Below, in pieces: positions 4,986 to 17,820 of a DNA stretch of 17,820 nt (position 1 is the first letter of the stretch; every line of letters begins with the position of its first letter). A program made the translations under genes and the position numbers. The notes beneath the pieces are model-generated. The model worked only from the letters and a program-made list of their open reading frames with translations. It had not been told where the DNA came from and did no database searches. This stretch comes from a bacterium (GTDB taxonomy: Bacteria > Blakebacterota > Blakebacteria > Blakebacterales > Blakebacteraceae), in NCBI GenBank assembly GCA_025774615.1, contig JALGVQ010000053.1:1-17820 (forward strand), read 5' to 3'.

Positions 4986-7900
4986 TTATATCTCACGTAT
5001 CTCTCTGTTATTTCCCGCACCATGGTATTCCTGGAGGGAGGTCACCTGCAAGACACCTTCCTGAAGAGCCCGGATGCCGTTGGCGGCGGCCGCGGCGCCC
5101 TTCAGCGTCGTGATACACGGAACACCCCGGGCAACCGCCTCGGTGCGGATGGAGCGGTCGTCGGTTCGCGCTCCCCGGCCGAAGGGGGTGTTGATGATCA
5201 GGTCGATATCCCCGTTCTTGATGCGGTCGACCACGTGTGGACGCGGCCCTTCACCGACCTTGAATATATGTGTTGCCTCGATGCCCGCCTGCCTGAAGTA
5301 CTCCGCGGTTCCCTCGGTGGCCATGATCTCGAAACCGAGCTCTTTCAGCTGTTTCGCCACTTTAAGGGCTTCTGCCTTGTCGTGATCGACGACACTGAGG
5401 AAGACCGTTCCCTGTGTCGGCAGTTCGTAACCGGTGGACGAGAAGGCCTTGGCGAAGGCCAGCCCCGGGGATGAGGCCGAACCCATCACCTCACCGGTGC
5501 TGCGCATCTCAGGCCCGAGGATCGTGTCGACCCCGGGGAACTTCATGAAGGGGAAGACGACCGCTTTAACGAAATATTCGGGCGCCTCTCCCTCATCGGG
5601 AACACCCAGCTCATCGAGCATCTTTCCGGCCATCACTTTCGCGGCCACCTTCGCCCACGGTATTCCTGTGGCTTTGCTCACAAAGGGAACAGTACGGCTG
5701 GCTCGTGGATTCACCTCAAGCACGAACACCTTGCCCCGCTGGATGGCATACTGCACATTCAGCAATCCCCGCACCTCGAGCGCCTCGGCCATCCGCCGGG
5801 TATATTCCCGGATCGTATCGATCACGTCATCGGATAAGGTCAGTGGAGGCAGGACGCACGCGGAGTCGCCGGAGTGTACTCCCGCCTCCTCGATATGCTC
5901 CATGATCCCGGCGATCACCACGCGCTCGCCGTCGGCGACCGCATCCACGTCCACCTCGGTCGCATCCTCCAGGAATCGGTCGATCAGCACCGGGTGCTCC
6001 GGGCTCGCCAGAACGGCAGTGCGCATGTAATGCTCGAGATCCCTGTCGGTGTAGACTACCGCCATCGCCCGGCCACCCAGTACATAGGAGGGCCGGATGA
6101 GTACCGGATACCCGATCTCACCGGCCACTGCGAGAGCCCCCTCCACCTCGGTGGCCGTCCCGTCGGCCGGCCGCGGTATGTCGAGTTCCTCAAGCAGGGC
6201 TCCGAACCGCTGGCGATCTTCGGCCAGGTCTATCGATTCCGGATCGGTACCGATGATCGGCGCCCCCGCCTTCTGCAGGTCGAGCGCAAGGCTCAGCGGG
6301 GTCTGTCCGCCGTACTGGACGATCACGCCTTCAGGCTGCTCTGTCTCGACGATGTGCAGGATATCTTCAAGCGTCAGGGGCTCGAAGTAGAGGCGGTCGG
6401 AGGTGTCGTAATCGGTCGATACCGTTTCGGGATTGCAGTTGACCATGATGGTCTCGAAACCCTCCTCCTTCAGCGCGAAGGAGGCATGACAACAGCAGTA
6501 GTCGAATTCGATCCCCTGTCCGATCCGGTTCGGTCCACCCCCCAGGATCATGATCTTCCGGTTCTCCGTGGGCTCCGCTTCGTCTTCGCTCTCGTAGGTG
6601 GAATAGAAGTAGGGAGTGTATGCCTCAAACTCGGCGCCGCAGGTGTCGACCCGCTTGAAGACGGGTCTGATATCGGTCTCCTTCCGACGCTCCCGCACTT
6701 CCTCCTCGGAAGAGCGCACCAGTCTGGCCAGTTCGATGTCGCTGTAGCCGAACCGCTTCGCCTTGTAGAGAAGCTCGCGCGGCAGTCGCCCGATGCTGAA
6801 GGCCCTGATCCGTCCCTCGAAGTCGACCAGCTGTTCGATCTGCCGCAGGAACCAGGGATCGATACCGGTAAGGCGATTCACGTCACTGAGATCCATCCCC
6901 GACTGGAAGGCGAGATGGATGTAGAAAAGACGCTCCCAGTTCGGCACTCTGAGACGCTCGGTGATCCGATCGGGATCAAGATCGGCGGCACCGTCGGAGA
7001 GTCCCGCGCGATCGATCTCAAGCGATCTGATCGCCTTGAGGAGCGCCTCCTTGAACGTCCGCCCTATCGCCATCGCCTCACCGACCGACTTCATCTGTGT
7101 CGTCAGGGTCTGGTCGACGTTGGGGAACTTCTCGAACGCCCAGCGGGGGATCTTCACGACACAGTAATCGATCGTGGGCTCGAATGAAGCCGGGGTTTCC
7201 CGGGTGATATCGTTCGGGATCTCGTCGAGTGTGTAGCCGATGGCCAGTTTGGCGGCGATCTTCGCGATCGGGAAACCGGTGGCTTTCGAGGCGAGTGCGC
7301 TGGATCGGCTCACCCGCGGGTTCATCTCGATAACCAGGATACGGCCGTCGTCGGGATTGAGAGCGAACTGAATGTTACTGCCGCCGGTCTCGACACCGAT
7401 CGTGCGGATCACCTGCAGGGCCATGTCGCGCATGCGCTGGTATTCGCGGTCGGTGAGCGTCTGCGCGGGCGCCACGGTGATCGAATCACCGGTATGGATT
7501 CCCATGGCATCGAAGTTCTCGATCGAACAGATAACCACCACGTTGTCCATGAGGTCCCGCATGACCTCCAGCTCGTATTCCTTCCACCCGATGACCGACT
7601 CTTCGATGAGTATCCGCCCGACCGGACTGGAATCGATCCCCTTCTCCGCCAGGCTCCGCAGCTCTTCGATATTCCAGGCGATACCCGCGCCAGACCCGCC
7701 GAGGGTGTAGGAGGGGCGGATGATAACCGGATATCCGATCTCCTCGATAAAATCGACTGCCTCCTCGACCGTGAGCACATATGCGCTGTGCGGGCACTCA
7801 AGCCCTGCCCTCTCCATCGCCTCCTTGAAGAGATCCCGATCCTCAGCCATCGCGATGGCGTCCGGTTTTGCACCGATCATCTCGACACCGTACCGCTCCA

Positions 7901-8222
7901 GCACCCCTCTCTCGAAGAGTTCGAGAGAGAGATTGAGCCCGGTCTGTCCTCCGACTGTCGGCAGGAGGGCATCGGGCCGTTCCTTCTCGATGATCATCTC
8001 TATGACTTCAGGAGTAAGGGGCTCCACATAGGTTCGGGCAGCGATCTCGGGGTCGGTCATGATGGTAGCCGGGTTCGAGTTCACCAGCACTACCTCATAC
8101 CCTTCCTCACTGAGGGCCTTGCACGCCTGCGTGCCCGAGTAGTCGAATTCGCACGCCTGCCCGATTACGATCGGTCCGGAACCGATGATCAGGATCTTCT
8201 TCAGATCATCACGCCGGGGCAT
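4986..8222 (-). CDS. carB: Carbamoyl-phosphate synthase large subunit
   Basis: CarB makes carbamoyl phosphate from bicarbonate, two ATP and ammonia channelled from CarA, feeding pyrimidine and arginine synthesis. From ATG 8222 the protein is 1078 residues, close to the 1073 of E. coli. The first ATP-grasp half reproduces E. coli numbering exactly at key residues: Arg129, Arg169, the GGSGAG loop from 175, Glu215, His243, Gln285, Glu299, Asn301 and Arg303. An oligomerisation region follows (about 400-550). The second synthase half begins at about 556 ([12 protein letters not shown]). A C-terminal methylglyoxal-synthase-like regulatory domain starts near 935 and includes [12 protein letters not shown], the region where UMP/ornithine allostery acts in this family. 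The start overlaps carA by 14 bp and is preceded by a G-rich GGAAGGGGGG tract. An upstream in-frame ATG at 8258 would add 12 residues and break the numbering match, so I reject it. Confidence 0.98.
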
Positions 8223-9414
8223 CGTCACCCCCCTTCCGATCTGCCCGCGCAGGGTCATTGTTGTCGCGATGTTCCCCCATCGCCCGCACGAACTCTCTGA
8301 AAAGGTAGGCGGAGTCCCGCGGACCGGGTGATGCTTCAGGGTGGTACTGTACTGCGAAGACCGGGTATCCGGTGTGCCGGAAGCCCTCGTTCGTGCCGTC
8401 GTTCAGATTGACATGAGTTTCGATGAGCCCGCTTCCTCCACTCTCCAGATCGACCGCGAACCCATGGTTCTGGCTGGTGATCTCGACTCTGCCTGTTGCA
8501 ATACGCTTGACCGGGTGGTTCGCGCCATGATGTCCGAACTTCAGTTTCCAGGTCCGGTACCCGAACACCTGCCCGAGGATCTGGTGCCCGAGACAGATAC
8601 CGAAGGAGGGGAGACAACAGGCGAGGATTTTCGCCTCCTCCACGACACCGGGGAGCGCTGCCGGATCACCGGGGCCGTTCGAGAACACTACTCCGTGGGG
8701 CTTGATCGCGAGCACATCCCCGGCGGGTGTATCGGCCGGAAATACGGTTACCCTGCCGCCGACATCCACCAGCCGGCGAAGAATGTTCTGTTTCACTCCA
8801 TAGTCCATCACCGCGACGCGGAGAGCACCCGCCGGCAGGGGCGGTTCATCCTCGGGCACCTCTACCGGTGGTACCTGCTCCTCCGGTATCCCGAATGGCG
8901 CCGGACTGGGCTGATCCCATTCATACTGCTTCCCGATCGTCACCTCATGCACCAGGTCACGACCTTCCATCTCGGGTGAGGAGCGGACCTTGTCGAGGAG
9001 CGCGTCGGTATCGGAGGAGAGCGAGACGATCCCCCGCATTGCTCCGGAAGACCTTATGTGGCGGGTGAGGGCACGTGTATCCACGCCGGTGATCCCGGTA
9101 ACACCGTATTCACGCAGGTAGTGGGTCAGATCCTGGCGCCCCCGCCAGTTACTGAAGAGGTCAGAGTACTCCCGCACCACGAACGCCTCCGGCCAGACAC
9201 CCCTCGACTCTGCGTCCTCCGGCGTTACTCCGTAATTGCCGATCAACGGGAAGGTCATAACCACGATCTGACCGGAGTAGGAGGGATCGGTCAGAATCTC
9301 CTGATACCCGGTCATGGCAGTGTTGAAGACCACCTCGCCGGTCGAATCCAATCCCGCGCCGAATGATTTTCCGGGGAATACCCGCCCGTCCTCAAGTACC
9401 AGAAATGCGTCCAC
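8209..9414 (-). CDS. carA: Carbamoyl-phosphate synthase small (glutaminase) subunit
   Basis: CarA hydrolyses glutamine and passes ammonia to CarB. The protein begins [19 protein letters not shown], as CarA proteins do. It has the small-subunit N-terminal domain followed by a class I glutamine amidotransferase domain. Counting from GTG 9414 (401 residues), the nucleophile is Cys274 in SFGICLGHQ. The His358/Glu360 pair in [10 protein letters not shown] follows at the E. coli spacing of 84 residues. An acidic, Pro-rich linker of about 30 residues (164-196) between the two domains makes it longer than E. coli CarA (382). GTG 9414 is preceded by GAGGAGG, which sits on the stop codon of hyuB. An alternative GTG at 9456 would overlap hyuB by 26 bp. 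CarA and CarB overlap by 14 bp, so their translation is coupled. I see no arginine- or pyrimidine-type leader upstream, and expression may come from the preceding operon. Confidence 0.96.
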
Positions 9415-9430: not shown

Positions 9431-10996
9431 TCATTGTTCGTGTCCCCAACCACCACCGCCCGGGGTCTCGAGTCTGATCCCCTCTCCCTGTTTCATCTGC
9501 CACGTCCCTTTCCCGGGAAGCGGAGTCTCCTCACCAGCACTGTCTATCCTGGTGTTGCGACCGCACTGCCCGGCCTCTCCCCCTTCGAGGCCATAGGGGC
9601 CGAACACGCGCCGTTCGCTCAGGAGGCTCACTGTCGCCGGCGCCCCCAGAACGATCTCGCGGAAGATCCCGTCCCCTCCGGGGTGGAGTCCACTTCCCCC
9701 CGATCCCGAACGGATACGGTACCGTGTCACCCGGAAAGGATACGCATGCTCGAGCGCTTCCACCGGGGTGTTCCTCGTATTGGTCATGTGGCAGTGCACC
9801 GCCGAGGGGCCACTGCTTCCGGGCCTGCCTCCCATGCCGCCCCCGGTCGTCTCGTAGTAGGCATACGATTCATGAGTCCGTGGATCGATCCCCCCGATGG
9901 AGAGGTTGTTCATCGTTCCCTGGCTGGCAGCCGGAACCCGATCGGGAGCGGCCCGGGCGAGCGCGCCAAGGATCACGTCCACCAGCCGCTGACTCGTCTC
10001 GACATTGCCGGCCGCCACCGCGGCCGGATGGAGCGCATTCACGACCGTGCCCTGCGGGGCAATGAGCCTGATCGGCGCGAAGGAGCCGTGATTGGGCGGT
10101 ACCGCCGGGTCGAGCAGGCAGCGGAAGGCGTATACCGTAGCCGACAATGTGATGGCTTCCACCGCGTTCACCGGCCCGGCGCACTGGGGCGCGCTCCCGG
10201 TGAAATCGACCGTCGCTTCTTCACCATCGATCGTGATGCTTACCCTGATCGGCAGCGGTCCGCTCCCCATTCCGTCGTCGTCGAGTTGATCTTCGAATGT
10301 GTACGTCCCGTCAGGCAGGTCACCGATCAGAGCGCGGGTCATCCTCTCTGCGTATGTGAGGAGATGGCCCGCGTATTCGAGCGATTCCTCCACTCCGCGC
10401 TCCTCTATCAGTTCCAGAAGGCGCCGTGCCCCTACATCAAGCGAAGCCATCTGAGCGCGCAGATCCCCTTCCCGTTCTCCCGGCGTCCGCACGTTCGCCA
10501 TCATCAGTGCCACGAGGTCGGAGTCGGGTTCGAGTTCGCCCTTCTTGCGGAGGCGTACCGGCGGTATGCGGAGACCCTCCTGATAGATATCGACGGCCAG
10601 AGCCATCGAACCGGGCGCGATCCCGCCTACATCGGCATGGTGAGCCCGGGAAGCAACATAGAAGAGGGGACGACTCTCCGTGTACACCGGAGCCACCATC
10701 GTGAGATCGGGGAGGTGGGTGCCTCCGGCGAACGGGTCGTTCAGAAGGACGACCTCCCCCGGCTCCAGATGTCCTCCTTCGAGAGCGGAGGCTACCGAGC
10801 GGGGCATACTCCCCAGATGGACGGGCAGATGGTCACCCTGGGCGATGACCCGGCCCTGGCCATCGAACACGGCGCAGGAGTAATCCCTGCGTTCCTTGAT
10901 GTTGGGGGATGAGGAGGTACGCTGAAGAACGGCTCCCATCTCCTCCGCGACTCCTGCGAACCGGTGTTTATAGACTTCAAGGAGAATGGGGTCCAT
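9431..10996 (-). CDS. hyuB: Hydantoinase B / 5-oxoprolinase HyuB-type subunit
   Basis: This is the B subunit of an ATP-dependent cyclic-amide hydrolase: N-methylhydantoinase, 5-oxoprolinase and related carboxylases share it. The 521 residues are typical for a free-standing HyuB. Visible landmarks are DYSCAVFDGQGRVIAQGDH at about 38-56, HLPVHLGSM (56-63), NDPFAGGTHLPD (86-97) and SRAHHADVGG (116-125). The family-typical glycine-rich end is YRIRSGSGGSG and TPGGGGWG near the C-terminus. No signal peptide is seen; the enzyme is cytosolic. It works with HyuA, which here lies two genes upstream (13408-15519). The start ATG is 18 bp after the PfkB-family gene, with only a weak GGAAA-type ribosome site. 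The stop overlaps the carA Shine-Dalgarno. 5-oxoproline hydrolysis to glutamate and hydantoin opening cannot be told apart from sequence alone. Confidence 0.95.
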   Translation of the reverse strand: MDPILLEVYKHRFAGVAEEMGAVLQRTSSSPNIKERRDYSCAVFDGQGRVIAQGDHLPVHLGSMPRSVASALEGGHLEPGEVVLLNDPFAGGTHLPDLTMVAPVYTESRPLFYVASRAHHADVGGIAPGSMALAVDIYQEGLRIPPVRLRKKGELEPDSDLVALMMANVRTPGEREGDLRAQMASLDVGARRLLELIEERGVEESLEYAGHLLTYAERMTRALIGDLPDGTYTFEDQLDDDGMGSGPLPIRVSITIDGEEATVDFTGSAPQCAGPVNAVEAITLSATVYAFRCLLDPAVPPNHGSFAPIRLIAPQGTVVNALHPAAVAAGNVETSQRLVDVILGALARAAPDRVPAASQGTMNNLSIGGIDPRTHESYAYYETTGGGMGGRPGSSGPSAVHCHMTNTRNTPVEALEHAYPFRVTRYRIRSGSGGSGLHPGGDGIFREIVLGAPATVSLLSERRVFGPYGLEGGEAGQCGRNTRIDSAGEETPLPGKGTWQMKQGEGIRLETPGGGGWGHEQ

Positions 10997-11014
10997 TCAC
11001 TGTTTCCGGTTGAG

Positions 11015-12067
11015 TCAATCCTGGCTGGCGTCATCCTCCTGTCCGGGAGTTACTCCGGCCAGGATGGCATTGATATCTGTGAGCGTACCCAGTGCCAGCG
11101 ATCCCATGTGCAAACAGGCATGGGCCGCACAGGCAGAGGCGAAGTAGCCGGCTTCCTCTCCGTTGATCCCCATGAGGATCGCGTAGGAGAGACCACCGAA
11201 ATAGGCGCCGCCCGCTCCGGTCGGGTCGACCGCGGGTCCGCCCAGAGCGGCGATCGGCCACTCTTCTCCATTGTACATCAGGTAGCTTCCCTCTTTGCCG
11301 GCAGTCACCACGGTATAGCGGGAACCGTAGGTCTCGTGCATGATCCGGCAGGCGAGTCCGGGATCTTCTTCACCCGTCAGTTTCATGGCCGCGCGCTGCC
11401 CGGCCTTCAGGACATCGGTCTTCTGCAGAACTGCTTCGAGTTCCTTCCGGCGTCCAAGGCCGGCCTCCTCAACGAGGTAGATCGGATCGGTGTCGATGTC
11501 GGTGAAGATCATGCAGTCGGCGGCATGCGCGATCTCGATAGCCTGGAGGGTCGTACGGAGCGGGATCGTCGCGACATCGGTGTGGAACTGGAGTGAGCCG
11601 TCGATGCAGCCCACCATCGTCGCGTCGACCTTTTCGGGGGTGAGGTAATTCAGGACGTTCGGGAAGATGATGATGTTCCGCTCCCCGTTCGGCGTGACGG
11701 AGACCCACGCGAAGGGTGAGCGCTGGTCCTCCCACCGTTCGATGCAGCTGGTAGAGATACCCTCTGCCTCGAAGTCGCGCAGGATGCGGGATCCTTCCTC
11801 ATCATCACCCAGTATCCCCATCCAGGCGGCACTCACACCGAGGCGGGCCAGCTGGATGAGGCTCAGAGCGGTTGCCCCCCCAAGAGAGACTTCCAGCCCC
11901 TGGCTGATCTGTTTCGGCTTCATGAAACCCGCTTCAGGCACCAGCGCGTGATAATTGACCGTGCAGGTACCCATTCCGACCACATCGGCTGCCGCCCCGT
12001 GACTCTCCCCCTGCATCTTCTCTTCTGGTGCCTTACGTGGTGGACTCGATTGTCGCCTGGCACTCAT
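11015..12067 (-). CDS. PfkB/ribokinase-family carbohydrate kinase homologue lacking the catalytic Asp
   Basis: This 350-residue protein has the PfkB fold signatures. It shows an N-terminal strand DVVGMGTC at 28-35, a GGATALSLIQLARLG segment at 63-77 and MGILGDDEEGSRI at 83-95. In this family the middle element is usually GG-x-x-x-N-x-A. The C-terminal ATP-site motif is at 281-287. Relatives phosphorylate sugars or nucleosides. The motif normally reads D-T-T-G-A-G-D, where the last Asp is the catalytic base. Here it is DPTGAGG, with Gly287 (codon GGC) in that place. The substrate-binding Asn of the N-terminal GG motif is also not evident. It may be a regulatory or inactive homologue, or use another base. 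The gene lies between the PLP enzyme (51-bp gap) and hyuB (18-bp gap), clearly in the same operon. ATG 12016 is an alternative start that would drop a polar 17-residue tail. Confidence 0.85.
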   Translation of the reverse strand: MSARRQSSPPRKAPEEKMQGESHGAAADVVGMGTCTVNYHALVPEAGFMKPKQISQGLEVSLGGATALSLIQLARLGVSAAWMGILGDDEEGSRILRDFEAEGISTSCIERWEDQRSPFAWVSVTPNGERNIIIFPNVLNYLTPEKVDATMVGCIDGSLQFHTDVATIPLRTTLQAIEIAHAADCMIFTDIDTDPIYLVEEAGLGRRKELEAVLQKTDVLKAGQRAAMKLTGEEDPGLACRIMHETYGSRYTVVTAGKEGSYLMYNGEEWPIAALGGPAVDPTGAGGAYFGGLSYAILMGINGEEAGYFASACAAHACLHMGSLALGTLTDINAILAGVTPGQEDDASQD

Positions 12068-12118
12068 GATCTGCCCGTCCTGTTGTGATCCCTCTCACCT
12101 GTCCGGTTCGGGGCGTGC

Positions 12119-13318
12119 TCAGAGCGCCGCCAGACCGGTCTCCAGGTCAGCCAGGATGTCCTCGATCTCTTCGATCCCCACCGAAAGCCGGATAAGCCCG
12201 TCGGGAACCCCCATCGCCTCACGTTCACTGCTACTGAATTTGTAGTGTGAGGAGACCGCAGGCAACAGCAGGGTGGTTTCAACACTGCCGAGGCTCGGTA
12301 CGATCCTGATGAGATCGAGCGTGTCAACAACACGGTGAGCTGCGCTGAGGTCGCCATCCACTTCGAAGGAAAGCATCCCCCCGTACGCCGACATCTGACC
12401 TGTGGCGACCTCGTGATACGGGTTCGATTCAAGTCCCGGGTAGTTGACGAGCCGCACTTCGGGGCGTGTCTCCAGGAAGCGCGCGATCTCGAGCGCGTTC
12501 TCACAACTCCGCTCCACGCGCACCTTTAGGGTCTTGATGCCGCGCAGCAGAAGGAAGGCCGCCATCGGATCCATGATCCCGCCGAGGTCGATCAGACGAG
12601 TGCGGACCTCCGCTATCAGTTCGGCCGGACCGGTGACCACACCGCCGGTGGTGTCTCCATGACCGCCCAGGTATTTGGTGAGGCTGTGGATGACGACATC
12701 CACTCCCATATCGAGCGGACGCTGGAGGATCGGAGTGGCAAAGGTGCTGTCTGCCACGATCTTCGCGCCCGCAGCGTGACCGAGTTCGACCGCCCTGGCG
12801 ATATCCACCACCTTCAGCGTAGGATTGGTGGGAGATTCCAGATAGAGCAGATCGGCCCCGGAACCGAGCGCTTCTTTCAGCACGGCGCCATCACCCTGTT
12901 CGGAACCCACATCAACCCAGACGACCTCGACACCCCACGGCTCGAGAATCCGGGTGAAGAATCCGGAAGATCCGCCGTAGAGATCCCGGAACGCGACCAG
13001 CTTCGATCCGGGCCGCAGGAGGGTGAACATCACCGTGGAGATCGCGGCCATCCCCGAGGCGGCCGCGAGGGCATTCTCGCTCCCCTCGAGTGAGGCCACC
13101 TTCTCCTCGAGAGCCCGTACGGTCGGATTGCCCATCCTCGAGTAGATATACTCCCCCTTCGGCCTCAGGAACGCGTCCTCCAGAGCCTGGGCTGTCGCAA
13201 ACCCGAACGGAGCGGTCTGATAGATCGGTACCGACACCGCGCCGGTCGTGGGATCGGTCTTCTCGCCGGCGTGGACGGCGCGCGTGGATGGTCCTCTGCT
13301 GCGGTGTTCATCAGACAC
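12119..13318 (-). CDS. Trans-sulfuration-family PLP enzyme (cystathionine gamma-synthase/lyase or methionine gamma-lyase type)
   Basis: This PLP-dependent enzyme of the Cys/Met metabolism family is 399 residues long, the standard length. Visible active-site elements are YSRMGNPT (59-66, phosphate-binding Tyr and Arg from the neighbouring subunit) and SGMAAIS (88-94). RDLYGGS has the stacking Tyr114. ESPTNPTLK is at 161-169 and Asp190 binds the pyridine nitrogen. Lys215 in HSLTKYLGGHGD forms the Schiff base. It starts RAVHAGE like cystathionine gamma-synthases and lyases. Family members synthesise cystathionine from activated homoserine, cleave cystathionine to cysteine, or degrade methionine to methanethiol. 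I cannot choose among these from motifs alone. The start is GTG at 13318 with AGGGAG seven bases upstream. The gene sits between hyuA (89-bp gap) and the PfkB-family gene (51-bp gap), so a link to sulfur amino acid or gamma-glutamyl metabolism is suggested but not shown. Confidence 0.93.
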   Translation of the reverse strand: MSDEHRSRGPSTRAVHAGEKTDPTTGAVSVPIYQTAPFGFATAQALEDAFLRPKGEYIYSRMGNPTVRALEEKVASLEGSENALAAASGMAAISTVMFTLLRPGSKLVAFRDLYGGSSGFFTRILEPWGVEVVWVDVGSEQGDGAVLKEALGSGADLLYLESPTNPTLKVVDIARAVELGHAAGAKIVADSTFATPILQRPLDMGVDVVIHSLTKYLGGHGDTTGGVVTGPAELIAEVRTRLIDLGGIMDPMAAFLLLRGIKTLKVRVERSCENALEIARFLETRPEVRLVNYPGLESNPYHEVATGQMSAYGGMLSFEVDGDLSAAHRVVDTLDLIRIVPSLGSVETTLLLPAVSSHYKFSSSEREAMGVPDGLIRLSVGIEEIEDILADLETGLAAL

Positions 13319-13407
13319 GTTACTTCTCCCTCGTTCTGAAGGTTGTCTCTACCCCTGTTCGCTCTACCTGTATTCGCTCCACTGGAGCCCGGTTGCTGCG
13401 TGACTCA
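13319..13407 (-). other. 89-bp spacer between hyuA and the PLP enzyme gene
   Basis: This is the largest intergenic gap in the window. In transcription order it holds a perfect 5-bp-stem hairpin at 13376-13388 (GCTCC, 3-nt loop, GGAGC), then two imperfect 15-bp direct repeats and the ribosome site of the PLP enzyme gene. No T-run follows the hairpin, so I do not call it a terminator. No convincing -35/-10 pair is visible. Read-through from hyuA is the simplest expectation. Confidence 0.45.
13350..13379 (-). repeat. Two imperfect 15-bp tandem direct repeats in the hyuA-PLP gene spacer
   Basis: On the minus strand the units read GAGCGAATACAGGTA (13379-13365) and GAGCGAACAGGGGTA (13364-13350), with a partial third unit GAGACAA directly after. 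The period is 15 bp. The units share a leading GAG and a CAGG/GGTA-like end with the repeats upstream of hyuA at 15531-15575. Confidence 0.6.
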
Positions 13408-15519
13408 TCACCCATCGAGGGTGAGCAGAAGATCGCCGTATGATCCGACTTCGATGCCGGCATCGGGCGGTACGATCGTGGTTGCGGAGAACTCATGGAT
13501 CAGAAGCGGACCCCTGAGCTTCAGGCCGGGAGTGAGCCGCTCCCCCGGTATCTGGGGCGTGTCGAGGCTCATGCCATCCCAGATCATGGGCCACGTCGGG
13601 AACTCCCCGATGGTAAACTCCCCGCCGGCGATACGCGGGGCATCCGGATCCGTATCGCCGATCCGCGGCAGAAGCGTGTCGAGGTCGGCCGCTCCCGGAC
13701 CGTGGCCCTCCACCCGCAGGGAGACCAGTTCCACCGCAATTCCCGGCCGGTCATATCCGTAACGTTCGAGATGAGCAGCGGCAAAGCGGGCCTTCATCTT
13801 CTCTCCGAGCTCCACCGTTCCTGCCTCCCCCTGCCCGGGTACCTCCACCGTCAGTTCGAATGACTGTCCCCGGTATCTCAGATCGACACGCCGTCCAAGG
13901 GTGCACTCCTCACGTGACACACCCGCTTCCTCAAGTCCCTCCAGCGCTTCCTCTTCGAGTCTGCTCCAGATCTCATCGAGCGCAGCGGCATCCTTCACCG
14001 CGTCGGAGCCCAGCACCGTTTGCGCCCGGTCGACACGCAGACCGGCCACGAGAGTGCCGACAGCCGAGAGGAGGCCCGGCTCCCGGGGGATAAGCACGCG
14101 GTCCACGCCGATCTCTGCCGCCAGCGCCGCCGCGTGCATCGCACCGGCCCCTCCGAAAGCGACCAGCACATATTCCCGGGGATCCTTCCCCCGCTCTACA
14201 CTGATCTTCCGCAGAGCTGTCGCCATCGTGGTGATCGCGACCCGCACCACCCCTTCGGCGGTCTCCTCCGGAGTGAGCTGGCGTGCTTCCGGGGAGCGCG
14301 CTGCCGCTGAGGCCAGTGCCCGAAGGCCAGAGTGCGCGGCATCGGTGTCGAGTTCCATCGTGCCGCCCAGCAGACCGCCGGCCGGAAGCCGTCCGAGCAG
14401 GAGATTGGCGTCGGTGACCGTGACTCCCTCACCATCGGGACCGGGGGATCTCCGCCCGTACGCAAGCGGACCGGGGTCGGCCCCGGCGCTCTGCGGCCCG
14501 ACGTTGAGAGCCCCCCCGCGGTCAATCCGGGCAAGACTCCCGCCACCGGCACCTACGGTATGCATGTCGATCTGCTCTATGAGGAGAGGATATCCCTCAA
14601 GTCCTCCCTCGGTGGTCTGGCGGATCGTACCGTCACAGAGCGCCACGTCGGTGCTCGTGCCCCCCATGTCGAAGGTGAGTATTTTCTCGAATCCTGCGCG
14701 TCTGGCGACCGCGAGCGCGCCGGCTACACCGGCGGCCGGTCCCGACAGGAGCGTGTGGACCGGTTCTCTGGCGGCGCGTTCGCTGGAGAGGCTTCCACCA
14801 CTCGAGGTGGTGATGACGAGGTCGGCTGCTCCGATCCCGTCGCGGAGAGCTCCGAGATACCGTCCCATGATCGGCTGGACGGAGGAGTTCACCACCACGG
14901 TGGATGATCGTTCATATTCACGGAAGAGGGGGATCAGCACCGATGAACGGGTGATGGGGATCTCCGGAAGGCTTTCGCTGAGCGCATCGGCAACGATCTG
15001 TTCATGCGCGGCATTGGCATAGGAGTGCAGCAGGCAGATCGCGATGGCTTCGGGCGGCGGATCGAGCGCGGAGATACGATCGATCAGAGCGGTGATCTCC
15101 TCACTGCCGGGCAGGAGCGCTCTCTCCACCTGACCTTCAGGACCGATCCGTTCGGCTATGCCGAATCGCCGGTCGCGGGGAATGAGCGGTTCGGGGCTCC
15201 TCACTTCGAGATCGTAGAGGGCAGGCCTGTCCTGACGGCCGATCTCCAGGACATCCTCGAATCCCAGGGTGGTCACCAGCACGGCACGGGCCACGTTCCC
15301 GGTCAGGATCGCGTTGGTGGCTACGGTGGTCCCATGGGCTATCCGGTCACCGGGCAGGAGCGCGCCCCCTTCGAGGGCTTCGGCGATCCCGTCGAGTACA
15401 GCCCGGTATGGTCCATCAGGGGTACTGCTCAACTTGTGGTGCACCAGCCCCCCGGGGGTGAGCGCCACGAGATCGGTGAAGGTCCCGCCGGTGTCGACTC
15501 CGATGTAGCGTTCCCGCAT
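13408..15519 (-). CDS. hyuA: Hydantoinase A / 5-oxoprolinase HyuA-type subunit
   Basis: This is the ATP-binding subunit of an ATP-dependent hydantoinase or 5-oxoprolinase, 703 residues, standard for free-standing HyuA. The hydantoinase A N-terminal domain (about 1-180) has the phosphate-binding DTGGTFTD at 9-16 and HGTTVATNA at 62-70, followed by EIGRQDRPALYDL. The second actin-like half has DMGGTSTD at 284-291, HTVGAGGGS at 320-328 and GPQSAGADPGP at 341-351. A C-terminal HyuA domain ends the protein. No signal peptide is seen; it is cytosolic. It needs HyuB, which here is displaced two genes downstream (9431-10996) rather than adjacent as is usual. The ATG at 15519 has GAGG seven bases upstream, and that GAGG is the start of a fourth copy of a 15-bp repeat. 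Substrate (hydantoin, 5-oxoproline or similar) cannot be assigned with confidence. Confidence 0.95.
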   Translation of the reverse strand: MRERYIGVDTGGTFTDLVALTPGGLVHHKLSSTPDGPYRAVLDGIAEALEGGALLPGDRIAHGTTVATNAILTGNVARAVLVTTLGFEDVLEIGRQDRPALYDLEVRSPEPLIPRDRRFGIAERIGPEGQVERALLPGSEEITALIDRISALDPPPEAIAICLLHSYANAAHEQIVADALSESLPEIPITRSSVLIPLFREYERSSTVVVNSSVQPIMGRYLGALRDGIGAADLVITTSSGGSLSSERAAREPVHTLLSGPAAGVAGALAVARRAGFEKILTFDMGGTSTDVALCDGTIRQTTEGGLEGYPLLIEQIDMHTVGAGGGSLARIDRGGALNVGPQSAGADPGPLAYGRRSPGPDGEGVTVTDANLLLGRLPAGGLLGGTMELDTDAAHSGLRALASAAARSPEARQLTPEETAEGVVRVAITTMATALRKISVERGKDPREYVLVAFGGAGAMHAAALAAEIGVDRVLIPREPGLLSAVGTLVAGLRVDRAQTVLGSDAVKDAAALDEIWSRLEEEALEGLEEAGVSREECTLGRRVDLRYRGQSFELTVEVPGQGEAGTVELGEKMKARFAAAHLERYGYDRPGIAVELVSLRVEGHGPGAADLDTLLPRIGDTDPDAPRIAGGEFTIGEFPTWPMIWDGMSLDTPQIPGERLTPGLKLRGPLLIHEFSATTIVPPDAGIEVGSYGDLLLTLDG

Positions 15520-15530
15520 GGCGCCGCCTC

Positions 15531-15575
15531 TATTATCTGATCCTCTGATACCTGGTCCTCTTATATCTGATCCTC
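15531..15575 (-). repeat. 15-bp tandem repeat, three units, spanning the galK stop and leading to the hyuA ribosome site
   Basis: In minus-strand order the units are GAGGATCAGATATAA (15575-15561), GAGGACCAGGTATCA (15560-15546) and GAGGATCAGATAATA (15545-15531). A further GAGG at 15530-15527 is placed seven bases before the hyuA ATG and serves as its Shine-Dalgarno. The first unit encodes the last four residues of GalK plus its TAA stop. Every unit begins with a GAGG that resembles a ribosome site. Confidence 0.8.
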
Positions 15576-16829
15576 GATCGGGTACACCCCGGCTCCATCG
15601 GCGGAGTGGAGATGGTGGACCGTCGGGCGCCTGCCGAATTCACTCTCGAGGCCCTTCTCCACTCTCTCCCTCAGTGGTCCCTCACATCCTTCCCGATGGA
15701 ACACGACACAGCACCCGCCGAATCCCGCGCCGGTGAGCCTGGCGCCGAATACGCCATCCACGGTGAGCGAGCGCTCGACGATCAGGTCGAGTTCGGAAGT
15801 GCTGACCTCGTAGAGATGCGCGAGTGATAGGTGGCAATCCACCATCAGCTCCCCGAACCCTTCCGATTCCTCCAGAACGAGTCTCGTGACCCCTTCCCGC
15901 ACGCGGGCGTTCGCATCCACCACGTGCTGGACCCGTGACCTGAGCGGTTCGGGCAGGATGTCCTCGACCTCTTCGAACACTTCGGGACTCAGATCACGGA
16001 GTGACTCCAGCGGGCCCGTGACCTTCCGCAAGATAGTCAGGGACGTCTCGATCTCCTGTCGTCGTTTCAGGTACTCCCCGTCGGCCAGTTCCCGTTGCAC
16101 ACCGGAATCGATCACCGTCACGGCGGTTCCTGCCGGCAGCGGGATGTTCCGCCAGGTCAGATCGCGACAATCGAGAAAGAGCGCCTTGCCGGCCTCGGCC
16201 ATAAAACTCGTGAACTGGTCCATCACCCCGCAGGGAACGCCGACCCACCGGTTCTCAGCCCGCTGACAGAGCAGGGCAGCTTCAGGTGTGGCACCGCCAT
16301 TATTCAGAGCCAGGTAGACAGCCGCCTCCAGTGCCGCCGAGGAGGAGAGTCCCGATCCGAGCGGTACATCGCCCGCGATCACTCCCAGGCCGGTCGGGAT
16401 CGATGATCCCGCGGCCTCCATCTCGATCACCACACCCGCGACATACCTGCGCCAGCGGTTCTTCGGGCCTCCGGTGAGCCGTTCGAAGGCATCGGCACTC
16501 TCCCGGTACCGGTCGATGTCCGTGATATCGAGCATGAAGCGGTCACCGAAGTCGAGGCTGACGAACTCAAGTGCCTTCCCTTTTGGCCCAGTGCGCTCAG
16601 TGTGCTCAGTGTGCTCAACACCCTCTGCGAACGCGCACGACACATATCGGTCCACCGCAACCGGCAGGACGAAGCCGTCGTTGTAGTCGGTATGACCGCC
16701 GAGCAGGTTCACCCGACCGGGCGCGATGGAGATCCGCCTCCTCCTGCTCATGTCTTCATCCAGCAGTTCCAGAAGTCCTCTGGATGCCCTGCCGGCCGGT
16801 TCCGGCCACACCACTGCCGGGGAGGTCAT
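15561..16829 (-). CDS. galK: Galactokinase-type GHMP sugar kinase with an altered sugar-contact residue
   Basis: Galactokinase phosphorylates galactose at C1 in the Leloir pathway. From ATG 16829 the protein is 422 residues. GHMP-kinase motifs are in order: GRVNLLGGHTDYNDGFVLP (38-56), GDVPLGSGLSSSAALE (153-168), CGVMDQ with the catalytic Asp204, and the third motif RLTGAGFGGC near the C-terminus. An ELADGEYLKRR segment matches family sequence after the second half begins. The family-typical Glu of GEHTDY, a galactose contact, is Gly45 here (GGHTDY, codon GGT), so sugar specificity may differ. A loop at about 72-81 holds a 9-bp tandem repeat. I chose ATG 16829 because it overlaps the stop of the upstream helicase gene as ATGA. 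ATG 16856 is an alternative nine codons upstream. No other Leloir gene is present. A relative acting on another hexose is possible. Confidence 0.9.
   Translation of the reverse strand: MTSPAVVWPEPAGRASRGLLELLDEDMSRRRRISIAPGRVNLLGGHTDYNDGFVLPVAVDRYVSCAFAEGVEHTEHTERTGPKGKALEFVSLDFGDRFMLDITDIDRYRESADAFERLTGGPKNRWRRYVAGVVIEMEAAGSSIPTGLGVIAGDVPLGSGLSSSAALEAAVYLALNNGGATPEAALLCQRAENRWVGVPCGVMDQFTSFMAEAGKALFLDCRDLTWRNIPLPAGTAVTVIDSGVQRELADGEYLKRRQEIETSLTILRKVTGPLESLRDLSPEVFEEVEDILPEPLRSRVQHVVDANARVREGVTRLVLEESEGFGELMVDCHLSLAHLYEVSTSELDLIVERSLTVDGVFGARLTGAGFGGCCVVFHREGCEGPLRERVEKGLESEFGRRPTVHHLHSADGAGVYPIEDQI
16590..16616 (-). repeat. 9-bp tandem repeat, three units, inside galK
   Basis: On the plus strand the units are AGTGCGCTC, AGTGTGCTC and AGTGTGCTC. 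On the coding strand they give a repeated Glu-His-Thr tripeptide (EHT, EHT, ERT) in a surface-type loop between the first and second GHMP motifs. Gain or loss of a unit keeps the reading frame. Confidence 0.7.
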
Positions 16830-17820
16830 CGACCTATCTTCCGTTCCCGGAACCATGCTTCCACGATAGTGGTCACCTCACTGCTGGAGACGATCTCCGG
16901 TTCACCCCAGTCGAGAGAGCCGAGGAAGAGGCGCCCGTACGACCGGCTGAGTATCCGGGGATCGAGAACGATCGCGATCCCCCTGTCCTCGCGGTGCCTG
17001 ATGAGCCGCCCCATGCCTTGCTTGAATTTCAGGATGGCCATCGGCAGCAGCAACTCCGTAAACGCGTTTCCGCCCTCCCGCTGGAGCCTTTCAGCGCGAG
17101 CCTGAAGCACCGGTTCCGAGGGAACCCGGAAAGGAAGTCTCGTGAGCGCCAGCAGGCTCAACGCCTCCCCCCTGACGTCGATCCCCTCCCAGAATGAATC
17201 GGTCGCCAGCAACGCCTCCCCGGCGCCGGTCCGCAATGCCTCGAGCAGATCACTCCGGGGAGCCTCCCCCTGCTTTCTCAGTACGATACCCCGTTCGGCG
17301 AGCGGGCCCTGGAGTTCTCCATGCACCGCCTTCAGCATGCCGTAGGAGGTCATCAGGACAAGAGAGCGCCCACCGGCGGAGGTGATCGCGGGCCCGAGCA
17401 GATCGACAACCGCTTCCCGGTGAGCCGGCTCCGTCGGATCAGGAAGATCATCCGGAATGAGGAATGTCACCTGTTCCCGGTGATCGAACGGGCTGGTGAG
17501 CGACTCACTGACGAGCCGCCCTCTCTCCAGCAGATCGAGACCGAGCCGTACTGATATATAATCGAAGGTGCCTCCGGCTGAGAGGGTGGCCGAAGTGAGC
17601 AGGGCGCCCTCGACGATCCCGAAGGCTGTCCTGGCCAGCTGGGGGCCGACCTCGACGGGCGCGGTGGAAAGGGTCAATCTCGGAGAGCCGGTTCTCCCTG
17701 ACCTGCTTTCAAGCCACCGCACCATCTCCTCTTCAGTCGCATCGGCTGGATCGATGAATCGGGCCAGAGCCGCAGCGGCCCCGTTCAGGCGGTTCGTGAT
17801 GGCAGAGATATCGATGAAGG
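16826..17820 (-). CDS. DinG/XPD-family ATP-dependent DNA helicase, C-terminal part (N-terminus beyond window)
   Basis: The frame is open to the right edge, so only the last 331 or so residues are seen; the start and Walker A/B motifs lie outside. The visible part is the second RecA-like domain of an XPD/DinG-type superfamily 2 helicase. It has a LTSATL motif at about 17580-17595, then TSYGMLKAV, the ATDSFWEGID motif at about 17177-17206 and the arginine-finger motif QGMGRLIRHREDRG at about 16980-17020. VLDPRI follows, as in DinG proteins. Family members unwind DNA 5' to 3' during repair and replication, often with an Fe-S cluster whose cysteines would lie in the unseen part. The stop overlaps galK as ATGA, so the two are co-translated, though no functional link is apparent. 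Whether it is DinG proper or a YoaA-like paralogue cannot be decided here. Confidence 0.93.
   Translation of the reverse strand, partial: FIDISAITNRLNGAAAALARFIDPADATEEEMVRWLESRSGRTGSPRLTLSTAPVEVGPQLARTAFGIVEGALLTSATLSAGGTFDYISVRLGLDLLERGRLVSESLTSPFDHREQVTFLIPDDLPDPTEPAHREAVVDLLGPAITSAGGRSLVLMTSYGMLKAVHGELQGPLAERGIVLRKQGEAPRSDLLEALRTGAGEALLATDSFWEGIDVRGEALSLLALTRLPFRVPSEPVLQARAERLQREGGNAFTELLLPMAILKFKQGMGRLIRHREDRGIAIVLDPRILSRSYGRLFLGSLDWGEPEIVSSSEVTTIVEAWFRERKIGR

Follow-up and report, generated by a model that had tools for sequence, protein, structure and literature searches.

The 17,820-bp contig JALGVQ010000053.1 (C30; analysed whole and hereafter called the window), from an uncultured bacterium of the family Blakebacteraceae, carries hyuA and hyuB, the genes for the ATP-binding and metal-binding subunits of a HyuAB-family enzyme, separated by genes for a Cys/Met-metabolism pyridoxal phosphate (PLP) enzyme and a PfkB-family protein, in a co-directional run that leads into carA and carB. 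The arrangement is genuine and conserved across its family. The literature searched held no report of it, nor anything relevant on a hyuAB–methionine gamma-lyase operon. It is only modestly unusual, its parts being ordinary except for the PfkB protein, a probable pseudokinase. For the locus as a whole we favour, with a confidence slightly above even, a long co-directional run in which an OPLAH-type, two-subunit 5-oxoprolinase-like enzyme has been split by two lineage-specific genes. The run, conserved in a single family of uncultured bacteria, would then be of a housekeeping-like kind. HyuA would bind ATP and transfer phosphate to the amide carbonyl of a small lactam, for which 5-oxo-L-proline is the likeliest candidate, and HyuB would complete the hydrolysis to L-glutamate via its metal site. 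We infer that the PLP protein is a gamma-family enzyme and that the PfkB protein has a non-catalytic, binding or regulatory role, while shared transcription, rather than a common pathway, would account for the presence of CarAB, DinG and the GHMP kinase in the run.

Gene order and conservation within the family

The four central genes all lie on the minus strand of the window: hyuA (13408..15519; 703 aa; Hydant_A_N and Hydantoinase_A domains; PF05378, PF01968 over the cut-off, and PF19278), the gene for an orphan-subfamily PLP enzyme (12119..13318; 399 aa; PF01053, Cys_Met_Meta_PP, over the cut-off), the gene for the probable PfkB pseudokinase (11015..12067; 350 aa; PF00294, 131 bits) and hyuB (9431..10996; 521 aa; PF02538, Hydantoinase_B, 698 bits). 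They are followed on the same strand by carA (8209..9414; TIGR01368, 467 bits, over the cut-off) and carB (4986..8258; TIGR01369, 1540 bits, over the cut-off), encoding the small and large subunits of carbamoyl-phosphate synthase. With the GTG at 9414 as the start of carA, the successive intergenic gaps from hyuA to carA measure 89, 51, 18 and 16 bp. The order hyuA, PLP, PfkB, hyuB, carA, carB with gaps of 16–89 bp, as described in an earlier note on this DNA, is confirmed by the list of open reading frames and the Pfam matches, which both agree with the described run, and by the junction measurements.

The window genome (G000; 3.3 Mb in 324 contigs, 82% complete) was compared with three others of its family, G001 from the same genus, G002, and G003 from another genus, the four being 63–85% complete. 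A 12,964-bp contig of G001 carries the full minus-strand order of the window, from dinG through the GHMP kinase gene (gal), hyuA, plp, pfkB and hyuB to carA and carB. G003 carries a partial hyuA followed by plp, pfkB, hyuB and carA on one contig, with dinG, gal and a partial hyuA on another, and G002 carries dinG, gal and hyuA as far as the contig end. Identity to the window proteins is 87% and 81% for HyuB (G001 and G003), 83% and 72% for HyuA (G001 and G002), 85% and 74% for the PLP enzyme and 81% and 63% for the PfkB protein. An artefact is ruled out, and so is an order confined to a single genome, which the earlier note had named as refuting, by the recurrence of the order in G001, G002 and G003; it is conserved across two genera. 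Outside the family, the same order was not seen in any other genome examined, and a scan of the genome collection with the PfkB protein matched the G001 contig only. Because the remaining genomes are no nearer to the window genome than 'same domain', the depth of conservation outside the family cannot be read from them.

No sigma-70-like promoter was found on the minus strand of the region in a scan that covered this one promoter type, and no terminator-like site was found in the hyuA–carA gaps. The run would be transcribed together, a reading to which the scan lends slight support, since it covers a single promoter type.

Upstream of hyuA, also on the minus strand, lie a galactokinase-type GHMP kinase gene (15561..16856; TIGR00131, 242 bits against a cut-off of 227), directly 5' of hyuA at a distance of 41 bp and a conserved hyuA neighbour in G001, G002 and G003, and the C-terminal part of a DinG-type helicase gene (16826..17820; PF13307; reading frame open for 330 codons up to the contig edge), which overlaps the kinase gene. 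In the gap between the kinase gene and hyuA (15520–15560, minus strand), AGAGGATCAGATA-type units are repeated imperfectly, immediately 5' of the hyuA start. In G001 (L062) the dinG reading frame is broken once, at about position 1886; a real frameshift was rejected in favour of a probable sequence error, dinG running unbroken up to the contig edge in the window and being complete in G002 and G003. On the 3' side of carB, the minus-strand run continues with genes for a GGDEF protein, a TPR protein and a HAD hydrolase.

Assignment of HyuAB among oxoprolinases and hydantoinases

HyuA is the sole Hydantoinase_A match in the genome and single copy, and HyuB is likewise the sole match found; both family domains score over the curated cut-offs (PF01968, 279 bits; PF02538, 698 bits). 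The ATP motifs DTGGTFTD, DMGGT and GADPGP of HyuA are invariant in the three family members, the motifs of this type being defined as DxGGTxTD and DxGGT for ATP phosphate and GxxPGP for adenosine (PMC8453981). The metal ligands D38, H94, D97 and H119 of HyuB align with D41, H99, D102 and H124 of the caprolactamase subunit CapB, which are of the type Asp/Glu-His-Asp-His (PMC8453981). The closest HyuB proteins outside the family, 55–61% identical, are encoded by a Thermomicrobium plasmid and candidate-phylum genomes, with haloarchaeal proteins near 50%.

The phylogeny called for in the earlier note places HyuB in an OPLAH-like branch. In the HyuB trees, the window protein lies within a branch of fused 1,140–1,210 aa OPLAH-like proteins from Agrobacterium and two other genomes, with the N-methylhydantoinase 7hk5 and the caprolactamase 6yra outside it. 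In approximately unbiased (AU) tests, a constraint joining HyuB to N-methylhydantoinase (p 0.0012) or to CapB (p 0.0005) was rejected, while one joining it to the OPLAH-like proteins was not (p 0.45). The motifs RAHHADVGGxxPGSM and GNVETSQRxVDV are common to the window HyuB and the fused proteins; at the place of RAHHADVGG, 7hk5 has SGQLIDNGG and CapB has KGHLTDIGG. HyuAB thus belongs with the fused OPLAH-type, 5-oxoprolinase-like branch, an oxoprolinase reading being favoured over a hydantoinase one on sequence grounds, and its most likely substrate would be 5-oxo-L-proline.

With OPLAH-type 5-oxoprolinase, HyuAB shares the two-module HyuA–HyuB make-up, the ATP- and metal-binding motifs and the HyuB motifs of the fused bacterial OPLAH-like proteins. 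However, the window encodes two predicted chains of 703 and 521 aa from genes 2.4 kb apart, whereas OPLAH is one chain of about 1250 aa (PMC8453981) and a related protein from another genome (G196) is fused, at 1214 aa. N-methylhydantoinase belongs to the same family, HyuA and HyuB scoring 383 and 292 bits against the one fused PDB chain 7hk5. The best NCBIfam matches of HyuAB are those of the caprolactamase CapAB (6yra; NF050156 and NF050157), with which metal ligands and ATP motifs align, but the scores of 407 and 278 bits fall below the cut-off of 1000, and the vicinal Cys-Cys of CapB is missing from the window HyuB, which has His-Cys at that place.

The earlier note had also raised a carbamoyl link to CarAB in case HyuAB is a hydantoinase. 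On this reading, HyuAB would be an ATP-dependent hydantoinase whose N-carbamoyl product ties it to the carbamoyl phosphate of CarAB. Membership of the HyuAB family and the start of carA 16 bp past hyuB, an adjacency that is conserved, are in keeping with this idea. However, CarAB carbamoyl phosphate serves arginine and pyrimidine synthesis, and the N-carbamoyl amino acids yielded by ATP-dependent hydantoinases do not feed CarAB. The carbamoyl link is disfavoured because the AU test rejects the N-methylhydantoinase and caprolactamase groupings, in trees from which HyuAB of Pseudomonas NS671, a 5-substituted hydantoinase, was absent, and we regard this explanation as improbable.

Pathway gene content was examined family by family. 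PxpA, part of the usual bacterial 5-oxoprolinase, was absent from all four Blakebacteraceae genomes (PF03746), and HyuAB would replace PxpABC in this family. Among 386 genomes, 44 had strong HyuB-clade matches outside the family and 30 had strong PxpA matches, with an overlap of 0 against 3.4 expected, a faint sign of mutual exclusion (one-sided Fisher p 0.023; 0.03–0.11 at other thresholds) in a test that ignores phylogeny. HyuA and HyuB homologues are often labelled 'hydantoinase'; because a 5-oxoprolinase-type enzyme is indicated in genomes without PxpABC, many of those in uncultured phyla may be housekeeping oxoprolinases.

Several points weigh against the oxoprolinase assignment. Support for the fork dividing the OPLAH-like set from the other proteins is moderate (88/66 in one tree; 83/71 to 100/99 along the backbone of the other), and the trees contained no experimentally proven OPLAH sequence. 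The fused proteins are taken by us to be OPLAH-like from their architecture and from motifs of eukaryotic OPLAH. In addition, the absence of PxpA was judged on incomplete genomes (63–85%), and the substrate of HyuAB could be another lactam.

The two intervening genes

The PLP enzyme retains the general features of its family, including the PLP lysine (HSLTK), but is an orphan branch by sequence, outside MetB, MetC and MegL, with which it shares PF01053. All NCBIfam equivalogs score below cut-off (best 427 of 600; methionine gamma-lyase, TIGR01328, 405 against 550), and when MetB, MetC and MegL references are placed in one tree with the protein, it sits on its own long branch. It has Gly at the place of Cys116 of methionine gamma-lyase (MGL) and Pro at the place of Glu339 of cystathionine gamma-lyase and gamma-synthase (CGL and CGS), where E. 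coli MetB has Glu. The placement among CGS, CGL and MGL sought in the earlier note therefore yields none of the three. The genome encodes a second Cys/Met enzyme on another contig (C96), 40% identical to the operon copy.

These features bear on a single sulfur or gamma-glutamyl salvage pathway with HyuA, PLP, PfkB and HyuB acting together. In it, HyuAB would open 5-oxoproline or a sulfur-containing analogue, for example 2-oxothiazolidine-4-carboxylate, and the sulfur amino acid set free would be handled by the PLP enzyme. The four genes are kept together in two genera under similar purifying selection, and all four family genomes have gamma-glutamyltranspeptidase (GGT), which occurs in several copies. 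In contrast, a GCS2-type glutamate–cysteine ligase (GshA) was not found in these genomes, other GshA types not having been searched; the PLP enzyme has no assigned substrate; the unrelated dinG, GHMP kinase and carAB genes lie in the same conserved run; and no Cys/Met PLP enzyme was linked to HyuAB outside the family within the stretches examined. We consider such a pathway unlikely. Glutathione salvage is possible; of the earlier proposal of an oxoprolinase in glutathione or gamma-glutamyl salvage, the oxoprolinase is favoured and the salvage is not established.

The PfkB protein was treated in the earlier note as an ordinary homologue, overlooking the loss of two motif residues. The Asp of the GAGD motif is the catalytic base of the PfkB family; all three members from Blakebacteraceae have GAGG instead, and their motif 1 lacks Asn (GGATAL or GGATVL), while the nearest relatives keep GAGD and have GGVTLN. 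Its dN/dS of 0.13–0.17 is similar to that of the neighbouring genes and denotes purifying selection. A structure prediction from two sequences gave a predicted local distance difference test (pLDDT) score of 34.5, too low to be of use. From its motifs and its selection, the protein is probably a conserved, non-catalytic pseudokinase. Plant FLN1 and FLN2, which are PfkB-like, and yeast Gal3p are sugar-kinase-like regulators with actual or proposed non-catalytic roles (PMC3409070), and the likeness of the window protein to these is limited to the suggested loss of catalysis. Conserved and under selection yet lacking the catalytic Asp, the protein gives a bacterial case, open to experiment, of a sugar-kinase fold serving something other than phosphorylation.

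In a more specific proposal, the split OPLAH-type oxoprolinase would have two working partners, the pseudokinase and the PLP enzyme, the former sensing a sugar or nucleotide ligand and regulating or scaffolding HyuAB, the latter supplying or consuming a sulfur-containing lactam or amino acid. If true, the partnership would add a new, regulated branch to 5-oxoproline or sulfur salvage, though we give it little credence. The four genes possibly form a functional unit, which is not singled out because the conserved run also contains dinG, the GHMP kinase gene and carAB.

In G001, the PfkB protein (L062:7371-8384) is 14 residues short, in frame, the missing stretch taking in the first strand of the fold; this fits either a protein without catalysis or an error of assembly. 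Elsewhere, a GAGD-to-GAGG change occurs in PfkB proteins of family f24 (L091, L093 and L095, from G311, G026 and G173), encoded away from hyuAB. A common origin with the window protein was rejected, the tree joining the f24 variants to GAGD-bearing paralogues from their own genomes, and the Asp-to-Gly change has therefore arisen at least twice. The nearest relatives of the window PfkB include proteins of 578–587 aa from family f112 that contain a PfkB domain (L087, L088 and L089), one of which has a SIS-like ISHSGGT motif, suggesting a kinase–isomerase fusion.

Separation of hyuA and hyuB in other lineages

Published hyd arrangements are two-gene clusters with the conserved order hydAB (PMC5214803), with which the window has in common that hyuA precedes hyuB on the same strand, but from which it differs in the two genes between them. 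Outside the family, 37 HyuB-clade loci were surveyed for their gene surroundings; 33 were informative, the contigs ending too soon at the other four. The two genes were adjacent (within 200 bp or fused) at 21 of the 33, separated by a gap of 0.3–1 kb at five, and unlinked (no hyuA within 3 kb on either side) at seven. The statement in the earlier note that HyuA and HyuB are normally adjacent or fused thus stands as a tendency but not as a rule in this clade. A split is a minority state and not unique, and the four-gene order of the window is a new instance of it.

These data bear on whether the split reflects neutral rearrangement, with two unrelated genes having come to lie between hyuA and hyuB by insertion in the family ancestor and no functional link among them, which would be compatible with the oxoprolinase assignment. 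At the two gapped loci that were annotated, the gap holds an HD-domain gene in f24 and an AbiEii-like gene in G012, hyuA and hyuB of G036 lie on separate contigs of 58 and 61 kb, and the genes near unlinked copies are generic, all of which favour this explanation. Against it, the tight spacing has been kept despite divergence to 63–81% identity, a slender argument because such spacing is expected of any operon. We regard neutral rearrangement as a real, if less than even, prospect. Horizontal insertion of the PLP and PfkB genes was rejected on composition, their GC (0.61–0.66) and GC at third codon positions (0.72–0.77) matching those of their neighbours.

Family f24 is a second lineage in which hyuA and hyuB are split and a GHMP kinase gene lies close by. 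At three of its loci (L176, L189 and L190), hyuA, an HD-domain gene and hyuB are followed by genes for an FHA/VWA-type protein and a galactokinase-type GHMP kinase, and at L189 a TldD/TldE-like pair precedes the run. Another hyuAB beside a PfkB gene occurs on plasmid pBEH4 of Priestia filamentosa (L109), where genes for a SIS-domain protein, HyuA, HyuB, a PfkB kinase with GAGD intact and a GntR regulator stand together.

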